Part shown: one piece after another, positions 5,491 to 56,400 of the stretch
How positions within the stretch are numbered: position 1 is the stretch's first letter
How the letters are laid out: the number at the start of each line of letters is the position of its first letter
DNA from: Haliclystus octoradiatus
Lineage: Eukaryota; Cnidaria; Staurozoa; Stauromedusae; Haliclystidae
Assembly (NCBI GenBank): GCA_916610825.1
Contig: OU744446.1
Span: 987,501 to 1,051,500, forward strand
Length of the DNA: 64,000 nt
Direction of reading: 5' to 3'
Translations under genes and position numbers: made by a program
Notes under the pieces: model-generated
Seen by the model: only the letters and a program-made list of their open reading frames with translations
The model's database searches: none
What the model was told of the DNA's origin: nothing

Positions 5491-20891
<15,401 letters not shown>

Positions 20892-32176: not shown

Positions 32177-35100
32177 TTACGTTAACTGGATTGATCTATA
32201 ATCAGATAAACAATTATCATTATTTGAAATTTTAATATATAATTTACTTGATTTTATTTTCCAGTTATTTTGTAGTGTTGGATCACGTATCAAATAAAAT
32301 ACTTGTTTGAAAATACCAATCGGTTGATTTTGACCTTTGTGCACCGTTCCAGATGCCTCGATCATGGCTAAACCAAACTCATCAATTTTACCCTGCACAG
32401 AATCAGAAGGGTTTAGTATCATTTGATGTTTTCTACCAAGATTTAAAATAAAGTTATTAACAGCATTTGAGTTGTTTAGTTCTTCGGAGTATTGCTGTGT
32501 CTGTGATTCATACAGAAATGTAAACTGACAATCACCCCAAAAGTGATCCGTATTCCATTGTGAATTACGTTCTTGATTAGTTAGCTCTTTCTGTGTGGAA
32601 CAGATTGCATTAAACAAAGTGAAATACCATGGTATAAAACTTTCTGCTAATTGTTGACCAATCGGTTGTTTCATGTGTCTTTCGTGGGTGTGATGAGCAG
32701 GATTAATCAATTCCACCTGAGTTATATTTGGAATGCTCTGGAACTGGAATATAACAAATGAAAATAAAATAAAAATAAGTAGCAACAGAATACAAGCATT
32801 GCATAAATTGTTAAAAACATATTGACATACACTTTGCGGGAACTTACAATGAAATCAAACCAGTCCTGGTCCTGCGCGATTGTGATAATGGGATTGAATG
32901 ACAAATTTCGAACACATCCCCTGTGAAAATAGTCCATGAACGTTAAATGGTCCAATTTCATGAACTATTCATGAACTGAGCGTGTTCATAAACAGGCCAT
33001 TTAATAATGTTCATGAACTGCTTTCGGGTGTTCATTGGCAGTTTCTGAATGACTGTAAAGTTCTTGAACAGTTCAGGGAAATGTGTAAAGTTCATAGAGA
33101 TTTGTGAAGTTGTTGAAAAGTTTATGAATATTTGTAAAGTTCTTGAACTGTTAATGAACCCTCCAGATTTACAGGGGCTGTAGCTTCAAAAAGAAATTGT
33201 TTGTGAGTCTGAAATACTGTGAAATGAAACAAAGAATGACCAGAATCTGAGTTTGGACTTGCGAGATTGCATCACAATTTATTACGCCTTTTTAAATGGC
33301 TTGCATACTACAGTTAAAATCTCAATGCATCACCTTGCAATTAATAAAAAACGTTTAATAAAAAAAATGATTCAATAAATTTACAAAATAATTGGCAAAA
33401 AATTTCTAAATAAGTCATTGCTCTGAGGACCACTCGAGACACTAAAGGAGAAAAATCAAAAGTGAAATTCATTTGCCCTCCTGTGATTCATATGAAACTG
33501 TGCACCAATGGATAATTGTGAAAACATTATTTGGTTCCGACAAGCATGTAATGCAGACAGTCAATTCTTCCAAGTGTGATGAATACAAAATCTGTCTGCG
33601 TCACAACTCACAGGATAGATTTTCTCCCCCTTACCGTTGATATATTTCTTTGCTGTTGAACTGTTTTGATCCTGCTCACTGCCTCCTGATCGTCTCGGTT
33701 CCAAAAAGAGAGAACCATATCAACAAGAGCAGATTTCTCAGAATTTATCTCAGGTACAATTTTATTTTCAACTAAATAGCTAAACAGCATATTTCGTTTC
33801 ATTTTCTTTCTATGCAGTAACTGTTTTGCGCTTGGGCAGTATGACAGGATAGCTCTAATTGCCTCTAAAAGAACAATAAAATAGAATTAATTTAAAGTTT
33901 GAAAATTAGGACTCTAGAATCAATTAGTAGATCATTATATATTATTGACATTGAGTTTCAACTTTAGTTGAAATACATTATTTTTAACAGAAGCTTCTGT
34001 GATAAACATTTGACAGAAAAAACAATTGGCAACAACATATTTAATATTTTATTTTCCACGACGTTTCAACCACGACTTGTGATCATTTCAAGTGAACAAA
34101 AACAATTTATGAAAACCTAAACTTACTATACCTATTTTGAAATTTAATTACTTTTTACTCAACTCGATTAAAGACTCGATAAAATCAATAGTCTTTTAGT
34201 AATGTATTAAATTTTTGTACAATTTTATTGTTCTACATTCATTGTTTTTACATTTTAAATTTCAAAATAGGTATAGTAAGTTTAGGTTTTCATAAATATT
34301 TTTAATTCACTTCAAAATGATCACAAGTTGTGATTGAAACGTTGTGGAAAATAAAATATTAAATATGTTGTTACTAGCCTAATGGTTTTTTCTGTCAAAT
34401 ACATTAATTTTGGCACTTCAAAACTTATATTTTTATTACCATAAATATATTATCTTTATCAAAATATGCATTATTTCGCCATCAAAATTTACAGTTGACC
34501 ATATCATATTGAGTTACATCGTTCAATTCATACAAAGATTATCGTCATACCGAAGATTAACGCCTTAACGGTAACATAGTCGTAGTTCAGGAAACAAGAA
34601 AAAGCGATGTGAAATATATTCCATTATTTGATTGCGTATAATAATATATTACTGAGAAATGCAAGCAAGTAGAAGAATTTTGCACAGTAAATGTATTGAA
34701 TTTTTAAATAAACTATAAAAGGAACAATCTGATTGTTTTATAAATTCAAGCTTATTTTCAATACATTAATAAAAATATCAACATAGAAATGATAAAATTG
34801 TATGGATAATTAGTTTTAATTATAATACTTTAAGCTTCACGTGGTTTCTTTCTTGCCTTCTTAGCTGCAAAGTCATGAATGATGTAGTGCGTTGCATACA
34901 TGTAGCCTCGAATCAGTGTAAATAAATAGACATCTAACCTATTGTATTTAGAGTAGTGTTGTAGAGGTCAGTGATTGGAAAAGATCAATTATATTATACT
35001 GTGTGGTGATTGTTGTTAGTTACTTAAGTACATGTCTTTAGATTATTGTTTGAGCTGCGGGACTCAACAGAATGACATCTTGAAAATCAATTGAACGCAA

Positions 35101-37231
35101 TTCAAGTCGATGTAGGATATCAATTTTCCTTGAGAAAGTGTCGATCTGTTGTAATTTTCAATTAATTTAAGTTTCGAAAATGACCTTTCTCCTGAGCAAT
35201 TTGTAACCATCATCGATAAATATACTCTAAGTACTGTTTCCACACCAGGAAAAACATTTACCAAGTCGTGGCTGTGGATTAGGTTAAACACATAACACTC
35301 CTCACTTATAGTTTTACTACTAAATTTGTTTAACAATGGCTCGGCATATCCTGTAAATATTGCCATTTCATTGCATAATGAAGAATCTAGATCATAATCG
35401 TATCGTGAAATAAGTTTTAGACAATTTGCTTCAATATCGGCACTAGATAATATGTTCAACTTACCAACGAAAGAGAAATATTTACTGATATCATTATACT
35501 CTACTTGCCGATAAATGAGTGCCTCCGTAATACTGTCCGTAAGTTTTTAAATGATTTGACAATAAAACCTTCTCTAGGAGTATTTAAAATTGTTCCGTCT
35601 TCATTTCTTTTTCTTGCCTGTCGTTGATACACAGTCGAGTACTCCCTTTCTCCGCACATTTCAATGGCTTTTATTTTCATAATTATCAAATTTACTTTTC
35701 ATAGTATTAAGAAAGAGATTTAACGAGTTTAATAGTCTAACCGCAGTATTCAGGTCTATTGTAACACTCTGAAGCTTACTACTACATTTATTAACTTCTT
35801 GCAAATTTCATTACATATGGTGGACATGAGTGCGGTCTCTATAAATTTAGCATCCGCTCTTGGAGCCCACATGCTTCTACTCTAATATTAGGTATTTCTT
35901 GCTCGTTAAGTGCAATCTCACCAAGAAGCCAAGAAGCTGAAGTATTGTACTATAGCCTACGTGAACGGCCTTTTGTAGCATCGACATAGGCTGACCAACA
36001 AGTGTCACACAGTCTTTTCACAACAAATACTTTATTACCACTTCTACTAGAGGCAGTCAATGCAGTCTTGAGCAAGTCCCATTTATCCGTCAAATTCGAA
36101 TGGAAAACATATAGGCGTTGTACGAAGTTGAAAAATTTAACAGCTTCTGGACAGGACTCCACAGCGCATTGTCCCACTAAATTCAAAGAGTGCCCACAGC
36201 ATGGGACTTTCTTCGTTGATTTTAGCATGTACACCATTGTACTTCCCGCGAGTTAGGCCCTGTTTACAAGGAGGGCGAGTTACCCGGGTAGGCGAGTTAC
36301 TCGCCTTACCGAGTTAAAATGTGTTGTGTGTTTACAAGGGTCACCTGAGTAACCCGCCTACCCGAGTTAAATAATTTGAAGCCAATCTAAGCATGCGCGC
36401 TGAAATGGAACGATTAGAGAACAAAAGATGTCTACAGCGGAAACGTTCGAAACAATACAAAATTAAAGCTACCATTTTTAATTTTAACCCGCCTACCCGA
36501 GTTACTCGCCTATTTCCGTTTACAAGTCAAAAAGTGACAGAAAGTTGTCTCGGGTAGGCGAGTTACTCGGGTGGGCGAGACAACTTTCTCACTTTGCTTG
36601 TAAACAGAACGCTCATAAACAATAGACCCGGGTAACTCGCCAACCCGAGTAACTCGCCTACCCGAGTAACTCGCCCTCCTTGTAAACAGGGCCTTAATGT
36701 TTGCCGTATTGTCATACGTTTGCAAATTTTATATTAACACCTTTACATTTAAGATAAGTGAGCAGAATTTTTCATAACTCCTCAGTCATTTCCAAATATG
36801 TTATAAAACGTTCCACTTCTACTGACCAGTCCTTCAGGTAAGATACTATATACTAATTAGGTGTAGGCCTAGGCCTACCTCAAATAAGAACAAGTTGGTC
36901 AATATGAGTAACATCTGGCGTAGAATCGATTGATATAGAAAAATACTTTGCTCTTTTGACTTCATGTATTATAGTATCCATCAAGCGAATACCCATGCAT
37001 TCTATTAGTTCATTTTTCCGAGAAAATACACGACCTTGGCCGAGCACAATGCATTCTTTCCAATCTGGCAGATGTATAATATATACGCTCGTCTCAAATG
37101 CTGAGAGACTTACCTTGTTTATCAGAGACATTCACTAGCCTTGTCGTTATAGTATCTGCCAATGAAATCAAGTCTTTTTCCTCAATTCTTTCAAGGATTT
37201 CAGTACATTTAATTTTCGTGTTGTCGTCCAT
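32177..37231 (-). CDS. C3orf38-like: C3orf38 homologue (DUF4518 family), complete
   Basis: Protein of the DUF4518/C3orf38 family, function poorly known; the C-terminal part has an NTF2-like feel. Exons: 37231-37114 (MDDNTKIKCTEILERIEEKD, then LISLADTITTRLVNVSDKQ), 33864-33635 (AIRAILSYCPSAKQLLHRKK, then SYLVENKIVPEI and LVDMVLSFWN), a 24-base microexon 32871-32848 (DQDWFDFI), and 32743-32177, which carries the family core: ESFIPWYFTLFNAI, TDHFWGDCQFTFLYE, FGLAMIEASGTVHKG, PIGIFKQVFYLIRDP, NNWKIKSSKLYIK. Phases agree (1, 0, 0). Total 312 aa; the human protein is about 329 aa. Intron 1 is 3.2 kb and holds a broken hAT transposase on the same strand, with a MITE inside it. Intron 2 holds a GTTCATGAAC-type MITE whose end abuts the microexon region. 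The microexon is the least certain part. Confidence 0.85.
32918..33177. mobile_element. GTTCATGAAC-family MITE
   Basis: Ends form an inverted pair, CCCCTGTGAAA at the left and TTTACAGGGG at the right. The inside is packed with variants of the palindrome GTTCATGAAC and with TGAACTGTT. It lies in the C3orf38-homologue intron. No coding content. A DR5 AGTTCA pair is at 32961-32977. Confidence 0.65.
32961..32977 (-). promoter_or_regulatory. DR5 AGTTCA pair, minus strand
   Basis: Minus-strand AGTTCA-TGAAT-AGTTCA within the MITE at 32918-33177. Confidence 0.3.
33981..34396. mobile_element. Foldback retro-insertion with AAATACATTA target duplication
   Basis: Two arms of about 140 bases are inverted copies (ATTTGACAG at 34008 against CTGTCAAAT at 34392; ACTATACCTATTTTGAAATTT against AAATTTCAAAATAGGTATAGT in the middle). 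Each arm carries a GAAACGTYGTGGAAAATAAA string. AAATACATTA is repeated on both sides (33971-33980 and 34397-34406). The shape fits two inverted, truncated copies of one retroelement inserted together, as Penelope-like elements often do. Confidence 0.6.
35064..37090 (-). pseudogene. Broken hAT-superfamily transposase (ZMYM1-like, DUF4371)
   Basis: Frames on the minus strand match hAT transposases with a DUF4371 core, but no frame is continuous. In order along the minus strand: AKYFSISIDSTPDVTHIDQL near 36930 (first catalytic Asp region), TYDNTANI near 36710, GKYNGVHAKI near 36210, then after a frameshift CCGHSLNLVGQ and FVVKRLCDTCWSAY near 36000, and the C-terminal dimerisation region VTNCSGERSFSKLKLIEN near 35190. 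Stops and frame changes separate these blocks, and a MITE interrupts the middle one. It lies wholly inside intron 1 of the C3orf38 homologue, on the same strand. It is an old, dead insertion. The 35501-35689 frame looks like part of the same remnant. Confidence 0.8.
36256..36693. mobile_element. PIF/Harbinger-type MITE nested in the hAT remnant
   Basis: Inverted ends GGCCCTGTTTACAAGGAGGG and its complement, flanked by TTA on both sides (36253-36255, 36694-36696), the 3-base duplication typical of PIF/Harbinger. Inside are many copies of GGCGAGTTACTCG and CCCGGGTA in both orientations, giving GC content far above the surroundings. No coding content. Confidence 0.8.
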
Positions 37232-37644
37232 TTTGTTATATCCTAACTAAAAACAGAGGCTGGGATTTCACAGAAAAATTGCCAAGGGGAAAAGGACCCC
37301 TCTAATTTATTTCACATGAAAATGAAGACCTAATCAACAAAATTTATAATTTTACTGCAATCTGTATTCAATCCTTGAGACAGACAGACAGACAGCAATG
37401 GAGACAGAGAAACCGTGTGCGTAGATATAGTACAATAGCTATAATGATTGAAATTCGACAATGGCAACATTTTCACAATTATGGTGAGACGCAGCCCCCT
37501 AAATGTGAGCAGCATTCCTGTCGTTCACAAACTACAAGCGCAAATGATCTTAAACCCAAAGTTATCTTTTTATTACATAATCAAACTTTACAAAAATAGC
37601 TATAAACATTTTAATAACATATTTGATTCAATAACTAAATATTT
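37232..37644. other. Spacer between C3orf38 homologue start and transposase-derived ORF stop
   Basis: Both flanking genes are on the minus strand, so this 413-base stretch must hold the upstream gene's 3' end and the C3orf38 homologue's promoter. A (CAGA) run occurs near 37380-37395. I looked here for a terminal repeat matching the far side of the transposase-derived ORF and found none. Confidence 0.5.
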
Positions 37645-40600
37645 CTATTCTTCAACTTCAATTTGAACAACATCAACTTCAATTCCAGTGTTCATACCAA
37701 TAACTAATTCATTTCCAGCTACAGTTTCATCGTTAAAATTAATATCGATTTGTTTTTGATACATGCGCAGGTAGTGATCAACTGCCTTCTCTCGTTCACA
37801 CAGTTTTGCTTGTATACTGGCAATTGTTTTTTGTTTCAATTTCAAACGCAAAGAAGGTATCTGTTTTGCAGCTTGGACAGTGGTGTTGAAACTGATATGT
37901 ACTGTATCAGCCGTAATGGTCTCTTCGCCGGATGTCATTTCTCCAATGATTGCCTCAAATACAAAATGTTCAAAAGCACCCCAATCAGAAACATTTTCTT
38001 CACTACCAGCATGAGGTATAAACATTTCAGGATCAGAACCTTCTTTGCAACTGTAATATTTATTGTGGAGATGTCTTCTACGTTTGACATTGGGTTGATC
38101 TAGATCTTTCTCTGGACGCGTCCCATGTGGGTTACAACAAGGATTGCAATCACAATGAGGGGTGCAACCTTCCTCGTTGCGATAACAAGGGCAGCGACAA
38201 ATGTAGTTTCCAATAGTTGTGCACCTTTGTTTATCTCTAGTTTTACCTCCACGTCCACAACGACATCTTATGATAAATTTTGGTGTTTCGTCTTCTTTAT
38301 CGTGGTCAAATGGTTTACCATTGTATGCCAAAGCATGGAAGGAGCGATCGATAAACAAGAGAAAAACATTTGGAAGAAAAGAAGATGGAGTACGAGGAAA
38401 CACAGGAGCAATAGGGAATACTTCCATGCTTGTGAATATAGTGATCACACTACAGAGACATGACGCTAGTTCTTTTACCATCGATTCTGCCTCTGTTTCT
38501 TGAACATTTGAAACATCATCTGGCCTACGTTCTAATCTCAATGCCACCTGTTCTTTCATATTCCTTGTAACAGCTGTTTGAAGCAAAAGAGCCATTTCAG
38601 TGCAAGACATTGTCTCAGTAATTCCAAATGGTAATAGATGCTCTTTTAGATTCTTGATTAGGTCCTTGTCGTCTGATTCTAGAAGATGAATCAAGTATAC
38701 GGCAGCGCTGTTAAATAAATTACCAAATCCAATTGAATCTTGTTGAGTGGTATCCAAGACAACAAAGTCTTTATGATCAGAAAGCACATCTTCAATTGTT
38801 CGTTTTGTAATCACAGCATCGCCACGATCAGCTAACATTGGGTGATACAGCAAAGAAAGAGCACATGTCAAAAATGGTACAAGTCGATAGTTAATATTAA
38901 TGTGTTGAGCAAATTTCTGTAAATCATGATGATACTTGTAAAACATGTGTGCACGACATATTATAGTCTCATAAAGCTGATGCTTTGATGATAGACTATT
39001 AGGATCTGGGTCTTTGGCAGAAGACGCTTTGAAATGTTTTCTGACAATCTCCAAAAGTTTATCAGACATTTCAGAGAATTTCAAGTCAGATGTAGATTGA
39101 GATGAATTAGAGTTCTGTGCTGTAGTAGGCCTAGCTGCTGAGATGACAGCTGTTGATGAAATCAATGTTTGATCAATAATAATACTATTTAAGTTTTCAT
39201 GAGAAGTGATAATATTAGTAACAGGATTAATTTGGCCTTTAGCGGAATTTTGTTCATGGAAGAATAACGTGAATAACGCAGCAGCTAATGGAACGCCTAA
39301 GCGGCAGTTTGTAAGACGATTACGCATCAAATGATGCAGCTCTTGTGAATGTAGATTACATACTTTGATTGGAATATCACTCAAACAACCAGCAGGGAAA
39401 TGCTGCTGGATTTCTTTAAGTAGCTTCACAACACTTCCAGGAAGAACTGGTGTCCCATTGGTATCTTTAACAGATTTCCATTTATTAATAAATATATCAA
39501 GATTGATAAGAAGAATGTTTGAATTAGCAGTTGACCCTGGTAATGCCAAGGACACATCACTACTTGAAGTGTCACAAAACACTAACATAAAATCTTTCCA
39601 GCAATCAGCAAAACAAGAATGTTCTACAGGCATCTTTTTCTCAATTAATTCCAAAGTAACAGAAACGTTATGCTTTACATGAAAATCCTCACCAAAAACT
39701 TCTTTTATTTGAGAACTCCATCCGCAACAATTATTAAGACAACAACCTTTCAGTTGGATACCCGCCTTTTCATGTCTTTGTCGTAACGACAAAAATAAAT
39801 CCTTTGTTTCATCAAATGAATCAGATTTTGTTAACTGCCATGCAATAACTTGTCCGTGCTCATTTACAACATAGAGTAGACCTTTAAACTGCGTAACCCA
39901 AACACCATTAGGCTTTGAGAACCCAATATTTGATGCAATCTTAAACGTTGTATCAACAATAAACCATTCTGAGGCTGCTAGTTGTGACATGCATTTTTTA
40001 TAATATGGTTCTTTCGTTTGGAAACCACTGATAAAGCATTGACCAAGGAGGGTGTTACTTGGAGATGAAACTTTTAACTTGGGAAATGGTTTAGCAGAAC
40101 TACCTGGCATTCCATTATGTTTTAATGATTCAAAATAAGCGTCTTCTCTCATTGCATAAGATTTTGTATATGCGTTTTTCATTAATTCTTGGATCTGATT
40201 AAACTTGAAACCTTCAATAACTAACGATGTTATCTTATCATATAATTTCCGTGTTAAACCTGCCTTGTGGAACAGTATGAAAGGCACATTTTCTTGATTT
40301 GAAACAAATTTAAGTATGCGAGGATCATATCCTAAAAAGCTATGCTGTTTATTATCACAGCGCAGGACAGATGTAATCAACGTCACAATCCCATCAACGC
40401 CATAAAGTTTTCGCGTGTAACGTCTTGTTAACAAACTGATAAACTTCAAATGACAACCACATTCTGGGCATCCCGTATTCTCAATTACTTCAGGACAAGA
40501 ATATTGTACATCCCAAATAATTACATCTGGTTTTAAAAAATCTTTCAAGGAATGAGCTTGTGTTGGCGACATAGATCGTACAGCGGAGTGAAAGCCATTG

Positions 40601-40824
40601 ACTCCATTTGAAATGAGATCCGTGATATATCTCTTGACATCTTTATCAGTGAAAGAGTCTTCGTTTGAACTTCCAGTTTCTTCATCTTGTGAGGGAGGAG
40701 GTATTTCATGATGAATTACATTAGAAATTGCCTCACATTGCTCTGAATTACTTGCATTATCAGATAATATAGTTACAGTAACAGTTGCCTCCTTGTCTTC
40801 TGCTAGAATCGCAGGGATTGACAT
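37645..40824 (-). CDS. Intronless transposase-derived protein with CXC cysteine cluster, probably catalytically dead
   Basis: Open frame 37645-40926 (1093 codons). I take the ATG at 40824 (MSIPAILAEDKE) as start, giving 1059 aa; the 34 codons before it look like leader sequence. Residues below count from the open-frame start. 133-250: DUF6729-like zinc segment (CPECGCHLKF, LRCDNKQHSFLGYDPRI). 320-560: RNase-H-like transposase core, starting FIVDTTFKIASNIGF (Asp325). Where I recall the family having Asp-Asp-Cys-Cys, this protein has LNNCCGW (398-401); where a Lys-Leu-Asp segment is usual it has VKHNV; before the His-His pair near 531 it has SQEL rather than Asn-Glu. 888-933: cysteine cluster CRCGRGG...CRCPCYRNEEGCTPHCDCNPC, as in KDZ-type elements. 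The C-terminus is helical and charged. No frameshift or stop. Family name uncertain (KDZ-like); transposase origin likely. Confidence 0.8.
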   Translation of the reverse strand: MSIPAILAEDKEATVTVTILSDNASNSEQCEAISNVIHHEIPPPSQDEETGSSNEDSFTDKDVKRYITDLISNGVNGFHSAVRSMSPTQAHSLKDFLKPDVIIWDVQYSCPEVIENTGCPECGCHLKFISLLTRRYTRKLYGVDGIVTLITSVLRCDNKQHSFLGYDPRILKFVSNQENVPFILFHKAGLTRKLYDKITSLVIEGFKFNQIQELMKNAYTKSYAMREDAYFESLKHNGMPGSSAKPFPKLKVSSPSNTLLGQCFISGFQTKEPYYKKCMSQLAASEWFIVDTTFKIASNIGFSKPNGVWVTQFKGLLYVVNEHGQVIAWQLTKSDSFDETKDLFLSLRQRHEKAGIQLKGCCLNNCCGWSSQIKEVFGEDFHVKHNVSVTLELIEKKMPVEHSCFADCWKDFMLVFCDTSSSDVSLALPGSTANSNILLINLDIFINKWKSVKDTNGTPVLPGSVVKLLKEIQQHFPAGCLSDIPIKVCNLHSQELHHLMRNRLTNCRLGVPLAAALFTLFFHEQNSAKGQINPVTNIITSHENLNSIIIDQTLISSTAVISAARPTTAQNSNSSQSTSDLKFSEMSDKLLEIVRKHFKASSAKDPDPNSLSSKHQLYETIICRAHMFYKYHHDLQKFAQHININYRLVPFLTCALSLLYHPMLADRGDAVITKRTIEDVLSDHKDFVVLDTTQQDSIGFGNLFNSAAVYLIHLLESDDKDLIKNLKEHLLPFGITETMSCTEMALLLQTAVTRNMKEQVALRLERRPDDVSNVQETEAESMVKELASCLCSVITIFTSMEVFPIAPVFPRTPSSFLPNVFLLFIDRSFHALAYNGKPFDHDKEDETPKFIIRCRCGRGGKTRDKQRCTTIGNYICRCPCYRNEEGCTPHCDCNPCCNPHGTRPEKDLDQPNVKRRRHLHNKYYSCKEGSDPEMFIPHAGSEENVSDWGAFEHFVFEAIIGEMTSGEETITADTVHISFNTTVQAAKQIPSLRLKLKQKTIASIQAKLCEREKAVDHYLRMYQKQIDINFNDETVAGNELVIGMNTGIEVDVVQIEVEE

Positions 40825-41402
40825 CACATAAATGGTAGTTTCAACGTGTAGGATACATGAACCGACGCCATCAAACAGACACCCACAGAAAACACAAACA
40901 CGCGCTCTTGAATGAAAAACAATCAAAATATATCACCTGTTATAATGTGAAACGACACAAATGTTTTCAAAGGCAGATTCAAATCAGTGTAAATGTGATT
41001 ATCGTAATTATCGTAATTAGCAAGTTTTACCTGCTATTTTTTCATTTCTATGCTTTCAATGTGAATAAAATGAGATTTTAATTCAGTTTTTGCTTTATTT
41101 GCTCAATTTAAAATTTTAAATAAGTCAAATATTTGAAAGCTTCATCCTTCACCCTTCATTAGGGACTTGGCAGGTGGGGAAAAGTACTCATTACGAGGCA
41201 AAATCAAGTTTCCAGCTATAATTCCCAAAATCTGAATTAGCAGTCAGTCAGAGTCAGACTAGTCCATCACTAAAAGATGGAATTAAAATTCATATTCTAT
41301 GTCTTTGCAAATGAATCACAATTTTCTATAATATACTACTAGCTTTTATTGAATATAACTGTTCTTAGTAGTTCGCATACAATTTCCAATCGATGTGTAA
41401 CG
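40825..41402. promoter_or_regulatory. Divergent spacer between transposase-derived gene and CatSper-subunit gene
   Basis: About 580 bases between start codons pointing away from each other. It should hold both 5' UTRs. No terminal inverted repeat matching the other side of the transposase-derived ORF was found. TAAT/ATTATCGTAATT repeats at 41000-41020. Confidence 0.4.
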
Positions 41403-44400
41403 ATGTCGATGTGGATATATTTGATTGTTCTATTGTTGTTTATCCAACTGCAATTCAAAGGTACTCAATTTTCATTGCTGCTTCATCACAGATTAATTCA
41501 CCTTACTAAAGATATCACGTATGAAGGCATCAATGACTCGCATATAGCTTCTTGCCTTTGGGAAGATTCTTCAGTAGGAGAGACTGCCATGTTTTACCTT
41601 GAAACTCATGTCATCAAAAATTCAAATCAAAGTGTAAGTTGATTTAATAGGATTTGAAATTGTGACTTCTCCAGAGAATACGGTATAGTTTCAGATCAAA
41701 GATTATCTTGTGAATAATTTCACTAAAGACTAACCCTTTACCAGCAGACATAAAAAATATTCCTTCCAGCTGCAAGGTTAAGGTTACCAGATTGAAAATA
41801 TTGCAATTTGCGCGCCTGAGATTTAATCAAGTTTAATTGAAATCCTACGTAGGAAAGTCTGCTGCGCGCCTGAGATCTCAGGCGCGCACAACAAACTTTT
41901 CAGTCTGGCAAGGTTATTTCAAAAAATATTCAATTATTATTATTGTTAATTATTGTTAATCAGCTCCGGACCAGTCTGTAGAGTATGGCAGAGCGCTACC
42001 CCGAGATGATATTTCAAGCATCTCAAGCACAAGCAATGGGCACCCATGGCACCATCCGGCCATGAAAACAAAATGCCAACAAAACTTACAAGAATATAAA
42101 TTACAAATTGATGCTACCCCTTCTCACAAGAGTTGCTACTCATTATTTCATTTTTGTTGTTCTTGATGATACTTTTGATGATACTCTCTGAAGTATGATG
42201 ACATGTTGAAAACCGCACATCGTGAAAACGGTAAATTTTGAGTTCAAAAAAATAGATGATTGACCCTGATGCAATCTGCGATCCCACTTTTGTGAAAATT
42301 TCATGAGTTCATGAATAATTCATGAACTTAAGAATGTCGCTTCCAGGTCAACTTTGGAATGATATGTGTTTCACCTAAATTTTTGTAGCGAACACAAATA
42401 GCAATCTTTAGCACGCTATTCATTATTTTTTATGAAATTACTTCATACATCGCCAAGTTGATATCCATTTCATTAATTTAATTTAAAAAGTTTTATTAAA
42501 TTCTGAGACGGTGAGTATTTTTTCGTTGCGAGGTGACCTTGAATGACCCAAGAACAGTTCATGAAAAGTTTACAGACATTTCCTTATAGGCGCATGAAAG
42601 GTTGATGAACGTGTGGGTAATTTCACATTCATGAGCTTGTGGACTGCCTTTGCAGGGGCAGCAGCCTCCATTTTACTTAATTTTGCCCTGATAAACTCTG
42701 GTATCTAATTTCAGATTCTATTTTTCTCTGCAGGTTGTTTCTGCTTGGAATGAAGAAGATTATTACCGAGCTATAGATACAATGGTTTTAAAAGTTCCGA
42801 TTAATATAGCTCAAGATCACAATCAAATGTTTTCCACAGTGTATCAGTATGCTCAGGGGTCTTCATTAGGCTGGCTCACGCAGTTACCAAGCGTGGATGT
42901 TACTAGTAAATTGTTTATTGAAATGAGACCCCATTATACAGAATTCAGAGCTGAAGGGTATGTCAGATAATACTTATAAGGACTGTTGTATAGATTAATA
43001 AGATCAGGTTGCTAAATCTCTTCATGCAATGTTTCGTTCCCTGTTTCGAAATTTTGTATTTTTTTGTCAGTATATGTTGTGTAACGCATAGATGATATTC
43101 TCATACTTAGTAAGTCACATGCTATCTTACATTCGTTATTACAAACATCACAGTGTACCACATGCACAATTGTACACTTCTTCCAAGGACAAGAAATATG
43201 CAATGCAATTTGAGTAGATGCAAACAATCTACATTCTATAGCAACCACCTCTATATAGAGACCACCTGTCTATAGTGGTCACTTTAGTAATATTAAAAAG
43301 CATTATTCTATTAAATCAAGCCTGGGTACCACTTGTCGATGGCAGTCAATTTATCTACATATATATAGGTGGGTGTTATATTTAGTTTTCATTGTATACT
43401 GTCCCCAATCAATTGAAGTAAAAAGGGTCAATCAAATCAAACTACACCAAGGACTGAATGTTTCAATGAAGTTTCGAGCAATTTTAAAAACCCAAAACAT
43501 GATTATTGTATTCTGCCTAAAGCATTTTTGATAAAAACCATTATGGTATTTTTTTCCCCGTAGCTTTGTGATCAACACCTGCAACAATGAGTTATCCTAT
43601 CCATATGTTAGTGAAAAGTTCAATCCAATCATTTTTCCAGAGATGGTAGATAGTTACGAGAGTCCTGTTGACGTTGTAAAACTACCAAATGAGATATGGT
43701 CCATCCTAGGGAGAAATCAAATTCTACCGGTGGTGTCTTATGATGAGTTTTACAGCTTACTATGCGTACAAGTATGTTGTGAATGAATTTTTTTTTTTAC
43801 GAGTAGGCTGTTTATACTGTTATATATATTATGTTAATCATTGACTAACATGTAAACAGGCCTACCAAAATGGAGCAATTGGATTGGTCGAACAGCAGTC
43901 AATTCTAAAGCTGCATTGACTGTTCCATGTTTTCTTACCGTTATGGCGTAAAGACACAACAGATATTTGTGTCTTCGATGCATTCAAATACGTTAAAACT
44001 CATGTTATAATTATATATCACAAAATTGACTCGTTCGTCATTGACTGAAACAGTTATTGATCTCAATGAATTTAACTGTTTATTATTTAATTTCTAACAC
44101 GTACGAGTGATGCATTTGATTTATGCAATAAATTTGCTACGTACAAATGGTTTGACAAGTTTATAAATTTCTTTGTTGGCTTTGACGTCTGACAACAAGA
44201 TCCCACCCAAGTCCCCCAATCTTTGATTCCAGAAGGGTAGAGCAATTCAGGAGATTGATATTTCTATGATTCATAGGCAGGGATGTTAAAGTTACTTTTG
44301 AAAAGTAGTTAGCTACAGTTACCGTTACTTGGACGAGAAAGGAACTAGTTACTTTCAGACGCTACTTTTCAGAAAAAGTAACGGTTACTAGTTACAAGTT

Positions 44401-47400
44401 ACTTTCAATTCGAAAGTAACTAGTTACAGTTACTTTTTCCGTTACTTTTTCTAAATAAATCTAAAAATATCCAACAGAAGCAATGAGATATATATGAAAT
44501 ATTGAAATAATATTTATGTATTTTAATTTGTTAATTTATCAAATCAAATGCTCTTTTAGAAAATAATAAATACCAAAACAAACACCCGACTAATAATTCA
44601 CAGCGATTCCTTTAGCGTGTTTGAATGAGCGGTCTAGTTATTCGATCCCCCTAATTATCATAACAAAGAAATCTCTAGCCTGCTCGCAGACTCACTGTCA
44701 AAATGTAATCTTGGTAAACAGTACTGTTTACCAAATTTACATTTTGACAGTGAGTCTGCGAGCAGGCTAAGAAATCTCAAGTTACGCGCCATTAGTTCTA
44801 TTTCAGGCTTGGTTGCTATGACAATTAATTGATCGAACAGACAAGTCAGACATAAAACGCTCGTTGAATCACTTGAATATTATAAACTCCGAAAAACAGA
44901 ATGTTTACATCCCCGAATGTAATTTTTTTGACATCCAAATTAATATATATTAATAATTATATATAATTAATTAATATAATGACAAGACTTCCTGCAGTTG
45001 CAGAAAACATTTGTTTGTGTTTTATTGTTCTTGGATGGTAACAATAGGAACAAAAGATTTTGCGATTGCGATCGAGAAGCTGCTAACTTTCAGCACTCTA
45101 TTGTGAAAAAAGTAACGTAAGAAAAGCGAAAATGTAGTGAAAAAGTAACGAGTAATCGTTACTTTATTTTTAATCCTAAATGTAACTAGTTACAAGTAGA
45201 AGTTACTTTTACAGAAAAGTAACTAGTTACAAGTAGCCTAGAAGTTACTAAAAAGTAACGATTACAAGTAACGTCGTTACTTTTGTAATCGTTACTAACA
45301 TCCCTGTTCATAGGTCAAACTTCAATGAAAATGTTCAGAAGAAAAGTTACAATTTATAGGAATTTTATCTGGCCCTGTCTGACAGTTATTACAACTCAAT
45401 GCCATGAATAGGCAATGAAAGCAAAGTGTTCTGAAAACATCAAATATTTTGATCGATGAAAAGTTTGAAAACTATGAAAACATTCATATTCACAATATTA
45501 AAATATGAAAACGCTTTGAAATTGCCATAAAACCTCCATGAAATTTCACACATTTTATAGTTTTTGTGCCAGCAGTGTTAGGTAACTGCAGCTCCTATAT
45601 TATTCTACATTACAATTACGGCTCCTCAAATTCTTATAATTTTATGCCTCTGAGAGGTTTTAAATCATGAAAAATATTTATGTAATTTCAAAGCTATCGT
45701 TTCTGATTGCAAACATACCCATATTTACTGTGTATTTTTAAACTGTACCAATGTAGGCTAAGATCATTTCCTATGTTAAAGTAATGATTTAATCAACTGT
45801 CATTTGTAATCATATCAAACTATATTTCTGATCACCTTCTTTTTAATTATTTTTAATAGTTACCAGATATTGATATGACACAACCTTCATCTGAATCTTG
45901 CCTTGATTATCATCACATCCAATTCAATTTATCATTGGTTCTGTTTGATAAAACTGTTATCATCACACAGGTAGAAAGATTTTGTTTATCACAAGGGTAG
46001 ATGACATAATATGCCAAGGAGATGAACTGCTTCCCGCCCACGGATGCTAATCATGACAAGACTTGCCTTTTTGCTATTGTTTATTACCGCATAAAAAATT
46101 AAGACAAGGAAGAAATGTCACACCTCACAACTAAGATTTACTTCAAACAAATCATCTAAGACAGTTTAACCTTGTTCATATCATTGTCCTTGTGCGTGCA
46201 GCCAAAAAATCTGGATAATAAACGGGTTGTGGTAGTAACCAGAATGAAATATTAAGGAATTAAATGGGTTGTGATATTAACGGGATTACACTGACATAAG
46301 GCTTATTTATACTACCAATAATGAATTAATTGGCGATTAATTACACATATCATCTGCTTACAAGTTTGATAATCTGATGATTTCCACTTTCATCATCAGC
46401 ATCATCGTCATCATCATTTATTAAGAAACTTTCAAGCCATTTGGCTTTTTTTCAAAGGGCTCCTACAGAATAAAATTAAAATAGTCACAAACTTTATGAA
46501 CCGTTCATGGACATTATTGAATAGCAGGTGTGAGCAACAGATAGACCTACTGAAAATGATTAAAAAGGCAAAAAAGAATAAAAACTTTAGAGTTGAAAGA
46601 TTATAGCCTTCACAAGTTCACAGCCGTATATCCTGGGAGGAAGGGGGGTTGCGACACCTCTTTGATTAGTTGCTCGCTCATTAACAACTTTGCAATATCT
46701 CAATTTTCAATGTTCTCTTTTTATTCAGAATGGAATATCAGAGTTTTATCATCCTAACCTTGAATTTGGTATGAATGTTTGTTTACTTTATCATAGATCC
46801 TAGTTTTTTAATCATTGTGAATCTCATTATTAATATCATACCGGTACTTGGCATGCAATTCATATTTAAAATAGCAGAGAGCCACAAATTGAGGATCCGT
46901 TCTTCATGCTTTTTTATATTTAGCTAGGTAATACACTAGATTTCAATCACATTCCAAACGGTAAACTGATCTAAATTGAGGACAGTTGACTTGTATCATT
47001 TCGCAACATGTCGTAGATTAATCAATTCATCTACTCTCCCCAGTTGTCATTACAGTAGTCAGACTGTCGCAAGGTGAAGGATCATGGGAACCTAATTTCT
47101 CAGAAAACTCACACAAAAAGGTTCCAATTATTAAGATAATTTAACATTTTTTGATTTTATACTTTTCCTGTTTTCAAATCTATGTTATCATGCTTCAAAG
47201 TAATTGAAACCTCAGAAATGTTGATTTCTTCGGAATTATGAAGCATTTTCTATTCAATTTTAAGCTGACAGTGTGGTCTTCAGGAGGCTGAAACCTTTGC
47301 GACGCCCTATTTGTAGTGTTGAAAACAGGATCTACCTTTAGAAATTTAATTCAATTTGGTATGCTGCTAAGCACTATATTAAAGGGAGAATACTGACCGG

Positions 47401-50400
47401 CGAACATTGCGCGCTCAACCAACTCATACGTCATCAATTTAAACAAAGCTTTGAGAAAAGCTGCCGTGCGTGTGAGTGAGCTTCGTTTTATTATTCTGGC
47501 CGTATGTTGATTTTATGGAAAGTACTTCAAATGAACAAATTAAAATCACAATTTGGGAGCTATACTACGTACTTATTTTAGCACGTTCTGGACTTTAATG
47601 TATTGTTTACTATGTGATCAACAGTATAAAAAGTATGATGAGCAGGAGCGTTTTTAGTCGATCAGTTCGATTGATATATTGAACGAAAGTAACACTAAAC
47701 AAGAACCTTGTTTAACATTTTGATTTTCGTTATAAAGCCAAATCCTTGTGTTTCTTGACATCTTAGGTCATCTTGCGTATCATAAAAGTTTGCCAACTAA
47801 TAACAAGGCAACTTCAGTAAATATAACCAAGGATAAATATACCAAAAGCAAACTAATGTGATAATTCAATAAAACTATGCGAATCTGAGTTAAATGCATG
47901 AAATAAATCGTTGTTTAAAAACATTGATTTGTTGATGATTGTCACAAGTTCACGGCTTCGGCATTTGTTCCTGTCTCGTGTTTTTGATTATTTCGTTCAA
48001 AACAATAGAATTAAGGCGAGGCCAACTCTGTTTCAAAACGAGTACTTGAATTTGGTATGAAGAATTCAAGTTCCGCGCGCAACGTTCCCCGGTCAGTATT
48101 CTCCCTTTAAAGACAGATGTAAACTAGTTCATGATGTAAAAAGTTCATGAGTTCATGAACGTGAAATTGCCCAAAAGTTCATAAACAGTTCATAAAAGTT
48201 CATGAACTGTTCATGAACTCATGGATTTTTTTCGCAGGGGATACAATGACTTTAACATATACCACTTTTTCAGCAATCACTGAACTTTTTTATTCTAGAA
48301 TCTTCTAATGTGTGTAATACTCATTGCATAACATCTGTTCTGTTATACCACTCAACTGGAGATTGTCTTTTGATATTTGTTGGAGTCAATAATTCCTTTG
48401 ATATAAAAGCTGTGTATATCTGTAATGGTAGGCATGATACTCAATTTATCATAAATTATACATCCTACAGTTTGTGCAACACATTAATCAATTGTATTTG
48501 CTAAATGATATACTGATATAAATATATAACTATAAGTTACCTTAAAGATTTGCTCAAACATACATCCCTGAATTCTCAATGTAAATATTTGTTTTCAACT
48601 TGCATCATTCAGTTTGCTATTATATCATAACAGAGTTTGTGTGGAATTTACCCCCAGATCTCCCCTGTGCTAACTTTATATGATTGAAATACTGTTTTGG
48701 ACGGCCTTAAGCAAGATATGTCGAGGGTATCACTAATAGTTTCATTCTGCGTGCAGATATTATTTCTAGTATGTGAATACTGGAATCAATTACTCAAATG
48801 CAATGTTTCGCGACCCAAGTTAACCTGGTAACGCTGGAAACTAATTGCAAATTTACTTATGATACAATCAATTTTGTTTTCTTTAGATGAGCCTTGTCGT
48901 TTTGTTGATGTTCATGATTCAAATGGCATGTCTTTTTCACTCTGGTTGTCAGCACAAAGTCATGTTATTGGTGAGCTATTTGACATGTCCGACTCCTTAG
49001 TGTAATGCAAAGGACACACATCAAATGATCCCATTTATATAATCCATGACCAAGGAGGTTCATGAAAGCTTAGTGAAAAGTGGAAAATGGATAATTTATC
49101 CATTTTAGAATTGTTATGAACTGTTTGTGGGCAGTCAATGTTCTATTAATAAACTGTTCATTAAGAATTGACATTTCATTTATAAACAGCCAGCATGAAT
49201 CATGAACTGTTTCACCTACTCCGATTATTTTTGTCAATATTATTTTTCTGCTGACGATTTCTAAACTACTTTGCTACAAGTTCTGGTTTCTCATATCCAA
49301 TAATTTTTTTTTCAGATTGGCATATTGTAGATTTGAAGGTTTTAGACGATATAGCTACCAGTGTTGGGCCTTCAAACTATATTTGTCTTGTGTCCAGTGA
49401 TAGTGAGAAGATGTATTCACTTATAAAGTTTAGCAACGAAAGTAAGAATGGTACAGCACATGTAGAATTGAATATCTATGATAACGAATGATGAATGTCT
49501 AGAGGAATGAGAAATGCAATTGAGTCAAAGAATACACGAATGCCGCAATGCTACTCTGTTAGCTACTCTGAGAAGTGATGCTCTTATGATTAGAAATATT
49601 CAATACTGATTCAAGTTGCATATTAATTTCAGCAGATTGCATGAATAATGGGATGTGATATTGTGATGGTTGTCGAGGCAGGACAACCCAGATCACATGT
49701 CCTTCCCCTCTGTTCAAAATTCATTGAGTTCATGGACTATTCATAAGCGTTAATAACCTTTACCATAAAGAGTTCATGTAAATTGGGTTAATTTTCTCAA
49801 GGGTTTAGCTGCAATTCCCTCTGGACCATTTCATCCGTGGCCATTAGATGGGTGCGTTGTCATTCAGGAGTTTTGAATCATGGCTCATCATATCATATCA
49901 AACAGTGAAACATTTATTTAACAGCCTGACACGAGAGGTAGATATATTGACCACTATATACAGGTGGCCTTATATACAGGGCTGATTCAATAGTAGGCCT
50001 ATACCAATATTAATCACTTTCTGCGCAATATGATTGTATCAACAGCGTTTCAATATTAGGGTTTTACCAAAAGTTTCACTCTTTCTATTTTATAAAAAAA
50101 TGCTATTTTATACATATCAAGAGTGACGAATATAGACAGGTGGCCAGGGTCTGAGAATCCATTTTCCCTTCCGGAAACCTGGATTTATATTCAAAAATCT
50201 TTGAAAAATTGTTTACGGAAATACTGAAAACCCATTAAAAATATCGCGCTGCAGGTGACCATTGTAACAGGTTAAACTGTAGTGCCAAACATTTGTATGT
50301 ATTGATTGAGAAAGCAGTTGTATTTATCATTTAGGTAGTACGTGGTCAACTGCAGTTAATATAAACAATGAAACAGGTGAATAATTGCACATTGAATATA

Positions 50401-53400
50401 TCAATCAATTTTATGATCATTCTGGATTATTCCGTAATATTAAAATTACATATGGTAGGTTTTCCAAACACCATTAATTGACTGACGATATATTCAAATA
50501 AAGACGTTGCCTCTTATTTTAACTTTTGTGTTGTTCCTAGTTCATGCACATTCTGACTATTGTCATGGTAACAATGGCTGTGCAATAATATCTTTAACTG
50601 GGATACATGTTTTATGGCAAACTGGTGATGTTGTTGTTTTTGGCAATGAGCTGTTGTTGTGGTGAGTTATTTTCAATGGTTTTAACATGAGTCTAACTAT
50701 CTTCATTACACTTATCCAAATTTGTATTTATCAGAAAGTATTCAAATATATATTGGATGGGATATTGCAAGCTATGCTTGAGCTATCTAAATGCACGACC
50801 AATCCGGGAACAGCTGTTAGAATGCCAAATTGCCAGCTCTCTCATAGCTTGAAGTCAGCAGAGTTGTGTGATGAGGCTAGAATGGATGTGCATGCGTTTC
50901 CATCTTGCTTTAATTAGTCCAGCTTGCAGTCATTCAGGTGCACACACACAATTCAGTTTACTCAAACACAATTCATTGAGTATCATCATGCACCTTAAGG
51001 AACATTATGACTCATTCTTATTCTCCTTGCGAAAATTGAAATAAATTTCTTTATACTGTAATCAATTTGTGTGTATACCTGGTATCAGGTATTTCTTAAT
51101 AAATGATGATGATAATTATCACCCTCTACCGTTGTTAGCCAATTATAGCAACACTTCGATGTACTTTTTTTAGTAATTTCAATTAAGTTAAATAGGGAAT
51201 AGGGTTTACACTGTTTATCAATGCGTGCGAAGGTGCTTGGTTTGGCGCAAGGACGGGCAAAGGTTTCCTTCTAGCAATTCAATCTAAGCTAATCAATTTG
51301 AGCCAAAACATACCAACCAAGCCAACAAAGCACCACCCTGGAATACTATTTCTAAAATATAACGTCGTAATCAACCTTAATCCTGCAATTTGATTGATTG
51401 GACCATGTGATTGGAAATTCAAGTGTAAACATTTTTTCAAAAATTCCCGTCGAAATGTGTCAATAAAATGTTGTCAGGTGCTCAAAGCTGAAGAAGAATA
51501 GGAAACAGCAATGTATTACTGTACTGAAGAAATAATATCAACAAAGCTATCTCTGTTTAAGAAATACCAACATTTTGAAGTTTTAATTTGATCCAAGGAA
51601 GTTTTAGTAAGTAAAAACATTGGATTCAAATTGAATTTTAAATCATTAATTCAAAATTCGAACGACCTTCTGAAATATAAACAAACTTGATTCTGATAAT
51701 TGTTTTATAGTAGTTTGGCTCCTTGTCTTGCTTTCAACATGTCACTTGTGTATTCCGCCATTTCGCGTGTAATAAATATGAATACAAACGCGACAAAGTG
51801 TGTTGTAACCCTTTACTCACAATGCAGTCAGAGATTTGACCTTAATAGGCCTACCGGTGTGCGGATTTCATTTTATTGAAGTGCACTATAGCTAGGTACA
51901 CTGTTTATAATTTCTAACAAGATGTTTTCTATATTTTCATACAATTCATTTATCAGTTTTATGTGTATTGTTGTGTACTGTAGTTACCTTCACGTTCCAT
52001 TCTGCTCCGTTGTGTCATCACATGTTGACGACCCTATTGTCCTGTTTGTGGCATCACCTGCTGGATATATTGCATTTGTAACACTATCAAACAAGGTATT
52101 TCCTATGATTCTTTTTTAAGTGCTTATTATCTTCTTTCACCACACAAACTGGTTTTGCGTCATGCAATTCTCACTAGGGCAATGATCACATGCTGCCGCT
52201 GCCGCGTGTATCTCCCCCTTCCTTATGCCATTTTATTGCATGGCAAAATATTGAAACTTCTAGATTTATTTCATTTTACATGTGTATATTATGTACAGGC
52301 AGACATTCTACCACCGCCACCTCTTTATCAGCAACCACCTGCCCAAGGTGACCACTTTAGTAATGTACAAAGTAATTGTTATTTCTCAACCACCCTGTGT
52401 GTAATGACCGCCTGTCTATAGAGGTCAATTTACGTTGATCTTTTAGATTACTGTTATGTACAGGTTTCACTGTATATGATACTAACAAATGCATTCATTG
52501 CCAACTGTGTTGCATCCGTGTGTCATGCCATGCCTTCCTTCTAGGTGTGGTTTGGTACAAACATCTTTCATTCTGCTGTCACACCCGTTGTTACACTGGA
52601 TTCAATTTCAACGTTATTCTTTGATTCGTTTAATGACCTTTATTACGTAAGTTAACCTTAGATAATTTCACCACAATGATAATTACAACCTTAAATTCTA
52701 TCACACATTTCACTTTTGGGATTATATTGATATGTATACAATGTTTAAGGTGTGAGAGAATTCCTCCTATCAGCTGGCAGTTCAATCAGTTCTAAGGAAA
52801 TTAACTTGGAACATTGGTTTGGTATCAGGGTTGTTTTCACAGTTTTCACAGACACGGGAACTTTGCTTTCTTTTGATTAAAACTGACTCTTATCTATAAA
52901 TATGATGATTACATATTTCTGAGCTTTCTATTTTGATTTATTCATTTTCAGATAAACAAATTCAGCAGTAGAAGAGAATTGATAAATGTAGCAGAGATGA
53001 TTGCCCAACAAGGTCTTGTCATTAATGAAATGTACATGGTTGATCAATCAGATGCTGATCAATTACCACTTAGTTACAATGAACGCATCAGCACTCAATG
53101 TATCTACTCTGAAGTCGAACTTATAATTGATGATGTGCAATCGATGTCGAGAGTTAGGACAATTCGCAGATGCCAATCAACTGCAACTAACGCTGGAGGT
53201 ATTCCTTTTGCCACAAACGATTGTGATCGTGAGGGTGATAATCGTCTGTGTTGTCTTGCCGCACCTCAACAAAGATATTATGTACATCTACCAGAAAATA
53301 TTTACCTTCAGAATGAACAATGTTTTAATTTCAGTGCAATCGTACATCTTAGAGACCAATATGGTGAGTGGATAATTTAGTTTCAATGTCTAGGTAGCTT

Positions 53401-56400
53401 AATATAAATATAATAATAATAATAATGGGATTGTTCCGCACCTTGATACAATGCTCAATGAAAACAGTCAAAGCGTTTATAGAATGAAAGTCAAAAATGA
53501 AGCAGTCTAGACACGAACAAGCAAATTGTGTGAGGATCACCTTGGAATGGCGTCAGGGTCCGACAAAAGGTTCAGCCTTCTGAAATCCTAGGGACATTTC
53601 AATTTTTTCTTCTGAATTTTGTCTAGCCTTCCAGTATCTAGGATCCCAGGATCCCTACTTTTGTCGGACTCTGAATGGCATGAAACCTGAAGTAGCATAA
53701 TTCTAATATATGTTGATTATCATCCTAATATCTAGTTGAACCTTTTATTCATAATCAAAACTGCAATGATTCACAGCACTTTGATTGGTCGACGGAGCAT
53801 GCAAGAAATTGAGGAAGCCTGCGAAACCTTGAAAATCAAAACATTGAAAACAACTTTCTTATTAATAATGTCAGGGAAACTAAATCTCAATTTCAACACT
53901 CGAGAAGCTAGAAAAAACTTTCCTGTGGCCTGTTTATTTATTACGCTTCCCTCGTGTCTCCAAACATAACTTGTGCAGTAATTTTGCAATGAAGCATGGC
54001 AACCCGTTCATGAACCCTTTAGTCCAATGATCTATTAACAAAAAATAATCTATTTAACGTTCATGAACTTTTGATGAACTGTTTTGATAAACCTCATAAA
54101 CTCATCAAAAATTTTCACAAGAGCCAGCTTTAGTCCAATGTTCAAAAATTCAATGTCTAGACCCAAAAAACTATATGCTCATTGGATGCAGATAATCTGT
54201 CGATTGAAATGTTTGATTGAAAAATTGTTTACATATTTAAGGTTTCTATGGACTGTCCAAGAAGATGGAGGTAAATGCAATTATGAACAAAGGGCTCTGC
54301 ACATATTCTCACAGATTCGTGTTCATTGCCTGGCTCTAAACATTACACTAATTATTCTTTGTTGAAAGTAATTAATTTCTGGAGTTGCTATGTTTTTTAA
54401 ATTATGTGTCATCATGTGTAATCATGATTGGTTTGTTCTTGATGAGGTAACTTATCCATTCTGTATCAATTTATTTCCTTGCTTAGATTGGCAAATTGTC
54501 TCTAGACCTTTACTTTCTTCATCATCTGTCCCTGGGGTTATAACTATCTGGCAGGCTGTCAAATTAGAGGATGAATTTGCAAATTCTGTTAAGCATGATG
54601 TAAGTAGACTCATCTCTTGTCTTGTCTCTCATCATCAGGCAATTATAGTTTAACAGTTTTCTCTTTTCGCAGCCTCTGTTTATTTGATTTATAAAATAGC
54701 AATGTTATTATATATTTTTTGATAATATTTTCCGTGATTTGTTTCAATGTTCGAAACTCTCTTTTGTTTATCAGTTTAATAATATATAATATATATAGTT
54801 TGAAAAGTAATTTGTACAGTATTTACCTTCACCTTCACTTTTCAAAATATACTGTTGCATATCTACACTGTTAGAAAGATGATACTTCAGAATGAAACAT
54901 TTGTAAATGGATATCTTTAACCGTTATTTTTCTATCAATTATATTTATGTACAATTCTTTTGTGACATCTTTTCCCTCAAATTGACTTTCAGGTTAGCAT
55001 TTGTGCGGCTGTAGCTGAAACATACCAGTTGCGTTCTGGTCAGACAACCGACTCAACCAATGTTGATATCAAGGTTAGTAAGGCAAGTTTATAAACACAG
55101 ATCCAAAGATGTTCATTTGCAATAAAGAAGTTCACAAAATCCTTAGAGCTCAGTGTTCCCATAATATTTACTTCTTAATTAAGAAGGCTAGATTTATACC
55201 AAATTACTTCTGACAGGGCAATACGTGTGTTGCTGACAAAATTCTGTGTTACGTGCGTATTTGGGAGCTTTGGTACAGTGATAACTTCAAAATACACAAT
55301 TTTTACAATTTTTCGTCTCAAAAATGCCCAAAATGTTTCTCAAAAGTTCTTGCAAATAGAACAGTTTCACATTTGAAGCATTTATGAAATTTTTATTATC
55401 ATTCTTTCTTTGAATTGTTTGAAAATCTTTGAAATCTTTTTTTTGCGAATAAACTTTTGTTTATATTGACGATATTGATCTTATCAAATGATCTTATTTT
55501 GTTTATGTTAAAAAGGTTTCAGGATCGAATGTTGGTTGTATTACGAGAAATCAAGAAAATAACAAAATGGTATTCCAGGTTAGTGTTCAACACAGAATTG
55601 TCTAAAAGCAATAATCACTAGGGACAGCCTCTCTCGGAGTAACTCATAAAACATTGTTTGACGCTAGACCACAGCGGATCTTTATGTTTATTCCTTACTA
55701 ACACGATGATTATGTCGTTAAGTCATGGTAAGGTCGTCCAATAATATTAATATTATCAATAAATCACCCAGGTCACCCTTAGCACTATGACAAATAGATT
55801 CTTTCGTTCAATAGGCTACAATGTTTGGGGTCTTCGGAACCTGACTTCCGGGACAGAACAAATTCAGCAGGCTTTCGGCTTTCATACTTCCTGTGTTTTG
55901 AAATTCATGTCAGCATCCTTCAAAATAAATCAAATTTCAGGAATTTTGGTAACATTTGTCAGAACTGTAAAGAAACATTTTAAATTCAATGACAGAAGGT
56001 ACCAATCTGACAGCATAGCTCCAGGAAGACTAGAATCTGTGTGACACCATGCCGTTCACCATAGAAATAGTGGGGCATTAAAATTGGGGCATTGGTTTGG
56101 GCATTCAACCTGCAGGGTCCAGGACAGGTTCAACTGTTTTTACATTCTCATCTTTAACATACTTTTTAGGATCATTTTACAACTTTTGTTCGTGTTGGTT
56201 GTCCACCTGGCCTCAGTGTCATGTTTGATGGTTACCAATCAAAAGTTAACATGGACGTTGAACATTATTGTTCAGACGGAGATTCATCTATCCCATGTTT
56301 TTTATTCGATAGAGGTAATGTATCTACTTTTAAATTTACGCTATTTCCATTTGTATGTCCGTATGTAAGGCGGGGATTCACAATGCCATTTTTGATGCAA

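Follow-up and report, generated by a model that had tools for sequence, protein, structure and literature searches.

A single-exon transposase-derived gene in the staurozoan Haliclystus octoradiatus with altered nuclease and OTU catalytic sites: a probable case of domestication

Does a transposase-like frame that is open over more than 3 kb belong to a mobile element, to the remains of one, or to the host? The question is raised by a long open reading frame (ORF) in a 64,000-nucleotide stretch of the genome of Haliclystus octoradiatus (assembly GCA_916610825.1, contig OU744446.1, positions 987,501 to 1,051,500; hereafter the window, in which all coordinates are given). Very probably the ORF encodes a domesticated, catalytically dead transposase. 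Three of the four acids of its nuclease site are replaced by amides and the nucleophile of its OTU domain is absent, and the product is therefore predicted to be a host protein that does not cut. A preliminary description of this DNA had proposed domestication, and the proposal is supported: neither many repeat-ended copies nor acids at the three altered catalytic columns were found.

Gene model and family

The open frame runs on the minus strand from 40932 to 37645. It had been described as an intact single exon of 1093 codons. The frame is indeed open, but that count begins at a TTG; from the first ATG (40824, in a GTGATG context) to the TAG stop at 37645, the single-exon ORF (37645..40824, minus strand) encodes a transposase-derived protein of 1059 aa. 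An AATAAA polyadenylation-like signal is found 71 nt past the TAG (37569..37574, minus strand). GC content by codon position is 0.466/0.367/0.269, which is a coding signature, and a chance open frame was ruled out by this periodicity together with the profile match given below. GC content at the third codon position (0.27) lies inside the range of ten host exon-like pieces (0.24-0.36; some of these were assigned by position only) and under that of three cousin transposases (0.33-0.39).

Three protein searches yielded 124 relatives (P0001-P0124), one of the searches contributing the best 120 of 151 matches. A profile hidden Markov model (HMM) was made from 54 relatives, excluding the ORF protein itself, P0005, P0007 and relatives shorter than 800 aa; it aligned residues 59-1028 of the ORF protein end to end with 549 bits. 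Column counts are given against 123 relatives, the very distant P0007 being omitted from counts and trees. In P0007 a 3'-5' exonuclease domain (PF01612) is listed within a DUF6729-type transposase. By homology, the ORF protein descends from a family of transposases in which a DUF6729-like zinc module is followed by an RNase-H core, an OTU protease domain and an MSL2-type CXC domain, and it has the same domain order. Some relatives carry names from Desmophyllum, Exaiptasia, Clytia and Dysidea. No description of an OTU/CXC transposase family was found in the literature searched.

Relatives match PF02338 (OTU) and MSL2-CXC, and DUF6729 is matched in P0090, P0092, P0096 and P0098. The family profile searched against the PDB detected OTUD3 (E-value 4.9e-8) and MSL2 (2lua, E-value 1.9e-4). 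In the ORF protein Pfam detects DUF6729 and MSL2-CXC alone, both under cut-off. The earlier assignment to DUF6729 is consequently sub-threshold for the ORF protein (residues 118-241, 40102..40473, minus strand; 18.8 bits, cut-off 27), although relatives P0092 and P0098 do pass. Within this DUF6729-like zinc module C119, C122, C156 and H161 are conserved and kept. When the family alignment was scanned over viral contigs and over genome contigs, 0/16 and 0/110 pattern matches were confirmed, respectively. A viral structure library search gave one match at E <0.001; Rfam and tRNA scans gave 0 matches each.

Changes in the nuclease and OTU active sites

The RNase-H-like nuclease core (residues 283-537, 39214..39978, minus strand) has a fold modelled by AlphaFold and an altered active site. 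The preliminary description had quoted the motifs LNNCC, VKHNV and SQELHH as altered forms of family motifs. All three are present in the ORF as quoted, and the family motifs had been given correctly: they fall on near-invariant acid columns and correspond to D364N, D386N and E494Q, and the HMM of 54 relatives places all three motifs on the same acids. N364 (39733..39735, minus strand) replaces the second catalytic Asp, which is D in 121/123 relatives; N386 (39667..39669, minus strand) replaces the Asp of the D-x-x-H motif (D in 122/122); and Q494 (39343..39345, minus strand) replaces the catalytic Glu (E in 118/119), a pairing that is the same in the HMM alignment. The three columns thus hold no acid in the ORF. 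The claim that the catalytic acids had become amides holds for three of the four conserved acids and not for the first Asp, as D291 (39952..39954, minus strand; D in 120/122 relatives) is kept.

Other residues of the core changed as well. Residue 292 is T where 121/122 relatives with a letter there have H, the His of the D-x-x-H motif is replaced (H389V; H in 121/122 relatives), and N493S also occurred; the columns of D386N, H389V, N493S and E494Q are all at least 99% fixed. Nearly all of the family retains D-D-DxxH-E, whereas the ORF retains only the first D and lacks the OTU nucleophile. Among relatives, the residue at the four acid columns differs twice in P0005 and once in each of P0018, P0036 and P0122, and in six further rows one of these columns is a gap. 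The core arginines R393, R419 and R428, conserved in the family, are changed in the ORF, and it is therefore doubtful that its RNase-H part still grips transposon ends.

The OTU-like domain (residues 661-836, 38317..38844, minus strand) was not seen in the preliminary description. Its fold is modelled with block pLDDT (predicted local distance difference test) values of 90-94 over residues 701-750 and 92-93 over 781-810. The fold is shared with the deubiquitinases OTUD3, OTUD5 and Otu2, but in the ORF protein the nucleophile position is without a Cys. No Cys is found anywhere in residues 655-740, and the nucleophile column is a gap in 4/4 MAFFT alignments and N702 in the HMM alignment. H830 stands near the place of the catalytic His. 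Two further candidate changes, replacement of the OTU His and Phe at the OTU Asp, were withdrawn because they depend on the alignment. Taking both domains together, we infer that neither would be catalytically active.

A number of relatives (P0003, P0005, P0008, P0009, P0012, P0015, P0019, P0022, P0024, P0030, P0075 and P0121) have Ser for the OTU nucleophile Cys. Their nuclease acids are kept where read, except in P0005, and in P0121 one of the acid columns is a gap. Several of these relatives end near a common GYFxxK point, suggestive of an exon border. A tree constrained to place them as the closest kin of the ORF was rejected (approximately unbiased test, p 0.015, on a quick tree, with a clade defined once a first tree had been seen and the ORF as a long branch).

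Retained cysteines and the CXC domain

Conserved Cys columns were taken as those with at least 35 letters of which 70% or more are Cys; 15/16 such columns are kept in the ORF and the sole loss is the OTU nucleophile. Five of eight conserved His columns are kept, the changed ones being T292 and V389 of the nuclease site and the alignment-dependent OTU His. Of the columns with 90% fixation or more, those holding Cys or Trp are unchanged in 12/12 cases vs 34/57 for those holding other residues (Fisher p 0.006, for a class that was picked after the alignment had been inspected).

The MSL2-type CXC domain lies at about residues 853-903 (38116..38268, minus strand; PF16682 16.5 bits, cut-off 26.7). 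The MSL2 study (PMC3447885) describes nine Cys together with Arg526, Arg543, Tyr547 and Asn563 in the CXC domain, and the counterparts in the ORF protein are 9/9 Cys, R855, R877, Y881 and N898. The same study presents the two exposed arginines, 526 and 543, as thought to serve MSL2 on DNA (PMC3447885). In the family, Arg is the most frequent residue at the R855 (31/65) and R877 (31/54) columns, yet it is not fixed at either. MSL2 acts in dosage compensation as a ubiquitin ligase, and the CXC domain alone is common to it and the ORF protein. A PF16682 search found no match in the own genome nor in 14 control genomes; as the controls were blank as well, this search is uninformative.

DNA binding by the CXC domain of the ORF protein is likely. 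The preliminary description had proposed that the DNA-binding and CXC domains were retained. This is correct for the CXC cysteines, while binding of transposon ends by the RNase-H part is put in doubt by the arginine losses described above.

Copy number and mobile relatives

In a search of the 33 contigs (262 Mb) of its own assembly, the ORF protein gave one match, itself, and so did 4.3 kb of ORF DNA with both flanks. Relative P0001 as a query yielded this locus only. The same search did detect repeats: the adjacent hAT piece gave 68 matches and a foldback repeat 176 matched pieces (40 of 505 candidates scored). Within about 2 kb of the ORF the best ungapped flanking pair of terminal inverted repeats scored 12, against 11-13 in eight shuffles, so the absence of terminal repeats noted earlier is borne out, as is the absence of multiple near-identical copies with such ends. 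A recently inserted mobile copy was ruled out by the single match, the lack of inverted repeats and the lack of a near relative.

A still-mobile, divergent transposase might cut with D291, E495 or other acids in a reorganised active site. D291 is kept and E495 adjoins the lost Glu, and the relatives do make up a large family. The single match in 262 Mb without inverted repeats speaks against mobility, as do the changes at the second Asp, the D-x-x-H motif, the Glu and R393, R419 and R428. A further argument comes from distant cousins in the same genome. Relative P0092 as a query found this locus and eight distant matches unseen with the ORF protein. The frames of four of these loci (L014, L015, L017 and L018) are 99.9-100% identical over the 960 codons fetched and lie at separate genome places; they probably represent an active family of distant DUF6729-class transposases. 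In the three frames read (L014, L019 and L020; L014 as far as the fetched stretch reaches) DHQ, VD(C/T), LDxxH and VEAVH are kept, as paired by motif, and multi-copy cousins in the same genome thus keep their acids. Taken together, this evidence makes continued mobility of the ORF the least credible of the alternatives, with hardly any probability left to it.

The presence of these cousins raises another alternative, that the protein was domesticated as their repressor, occupying their ends or poisoning their multimers. In favour of such a role, the genome contains related transposases of the DUF6729 class whose frames are intact and whose copies are nearly identical. However, in a BLAST comparison the ORF protein and L014 are just 21% identical over 277 residues, in an alignment that ends before LDxxH and VEAVH. 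No CXC-type or OTU-type stretch was seen in the part of the L014 frame that was read, for which no domain search was run. The loss of the conserved core arginines also makes joint assembly or shared ends look unlikely. A repressor role is accordingly given a very small probability.

Divergence and maintenance of the frame

The ORF changed at 19/53 columns that are at least 95% fixed; the next row changed at 9/48 and the median row at 2%. In a tree of 99 rows (rows more than 80% filled, ORF protein included) it is the longest terminal branch, with 1.69 changes per column, and its frame is still open. One alternative is a dying transposon, a relict without ends that is drifting and whose frame is open by luck or through recent insertion, and the losses of arginines and glycines do resemble broad relaxation.

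The open frame argues against this. There are 1059 codons without a stop or frameshift despite the changes at near-fixed columns, and the fifteen conserved Cys are kept. In comparison, 19/68 genomic matches to the 160-aa hAT piece contain stops. In the ORF 4.0% of random substitutions create a stop; at p 0.05, a stop-free frame of this length would therefore allow 2.3% divergence in the absence of selection, and 0.8% if an indel rate is assumed as well. That 8/9 active-site codons should change within 2.3% divergence has a probability of about 3e-10, for nine columns that were named after the alignment had been inspected. The active-site divergence is therefore too great for an unselected frame of this length, and a dying transposon is strongly disfavoured and judged highly improbable. 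We infer that the frame was kept open by selection and that the host makes use of the transposase-derived protein.

Observations that weigh against domestication

Several observations count against domestication of the protein or against parts of it, and the two classes chosen after inspection of the alignment (Cys and Trp; the nine active-site columns) belong among them. In the nuclease core, D291 is kept and E495 is adjacent to Q494; if two compensating indels are allowed, E495 could be aligned with the catalytic Glu. The changes near the acids cluster modestly (10/18 vs 9/35 columns, p 0.04). The model of the OTU motif loop is poor (pLDDT 63 for residues 691-700), and opposite the OTU His stand A831, H830, S828 or A833 in the four MAFFT alignments and a gap in the HMM alignment. 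The OTU nucleophile was also lost in nuclease-intact relatives, and its loss alone is thus no proof of domestication. The CXC stretch of the ORF compared by itself with MSL2 gives a non-significant E-value of 0.28, and its model is weak (block pLDDT 59-80); retained DNA binding is predicted from the homology of the CXC domain.

The phylogeny adds further points. In a second tree, of 53 chosen relatives and the ORF protein, P0108 has the longer branch (2.2 vs 1.76 for the ORF). With about 31-35% identity to its nearest relative, the lineage is isolated and of unsure position in the tree, and no orthologue was found among the relatives from the three protein searches. Codon usage correlations are 0.82 for ORF vs host pieces, 0.78 for ORF vs cousins and 0.83 for host vs cousins, and overall codon usage is without power to tell a host gene from a transposase.

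Genomic neighbourhood

As described earlier, the ORF is placed between two divergent host genes, a C3orf38-like gene (DUF4518, minus strand) on the left and a CATSPERG-like gene (plus strand) on the right. The latter spans 41403..59190, counted from the ATG presumed to be its first as far as the last piece that was recognised, and its first exon and inner pieces are assigned by position only. The piece at 58888-59190 matches CATSPERG_C with 23.9 bits (cut-off 27.6) and the CATSPERG chains of CatSper structures with an E-value of 0.013. The first exon has no Pfam match and the piece at 42695-42967 gave 0 matches in a PDB search. The presumed ATG at 41403 is head to head with the ORF, 579 bp apart.

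On the other side, a hAT transposon relict (35064..37131, minus strand) separates the ORF from the C3orf38-like gene. It consists of pieces flanking a foldback repeat; PF05699 is matched with 22.6 bits on 35067-35546, and the other two pieces, which have no informative Pfam match, were assigned by position and reading. The foldback repeat (36255-36694, 440 bp) has 62-nt inverted ends that are 92% complementary. Other copies of it are up to 98% identical, and the repeat was therefore likely active recently. Elsewhere in the window are CEP120, a protein kinase, a cyclic-nucleotide-binding piece and an aldehyde dehydrogenase, and a long TTA/ATA-type triplet repeat with poly-Leu, -Tyr, -Ile and -Asn frames at 12583-12946.

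Possible function and comparison with known systems

If the protein is domesticated, a CXC-anchored DNA or chromatin scaffold is a plausible function, to which we give somewhat less than an even chance. In this proposal the protein would be kept on DNA or chromatin by its Zn3Cys9 CXC domain, in which both exposed MSL2 arginines have counterparts. The RNase-H and OTU folds would provide surfaces for binding without catalysis, used in oligomerisation and perhaps in contacts with ubiquitin or partners. The outcome would be a transcription or chromatin regulator and not a recombinase. A more specific version is tentative and rather unlikely: a chromatin-bound pseudo-nuclease and pseudo-deubiquitinase scaffold with both enzymes off and the folds and CXC domain kept, perhaps co-regulated with the sperm-channel gene CATSPERG through promoter sharing. 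Changes in two unrelated catalytic centres are combined in one protein with 15/16 conserved cysteines intact. If the domestication is true, the gene would offer a clear system in which to ask how a transposon protein that no longer cuts is of use to its host, and the OTU and CXC modules would be the useful remainder.

Domesticated transposases are mostly described as retaining the cutting site or as losing one catalytic centre. The ISCth4 transposase (6xgx, 6xg8, 6xgw), solved in transposition complexes, is 12% identical to the ORF protein. A domesticated transposase that lost its DDE triad is already known in Imagin, a Ginger1-derived protein of malacostracan crustaceans whose orthologues are under purifying selection (PMC12863088). 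As presented there, Imagin resembles the ORF protein in being a domesticated transposon integrase with lost catalytic residues, a kept fold and no inverted repeats. It differs in belonging to the gypsy-integrase-like superfamily, in its H2C2 zinc finger and in its multi-exon gene, whereas the ORF is single-exon and of the OTU/CXC family; OTU is not mentioned as a term anywhere in the main text on Imagin (PMC12863088). Purifying selection was shown among Imagin orthologues, whereas the present case is known from the sequence of one genome. Compared with Imagin, the transposase family appears to be new, and so does the double loss of active sites within a single protein.

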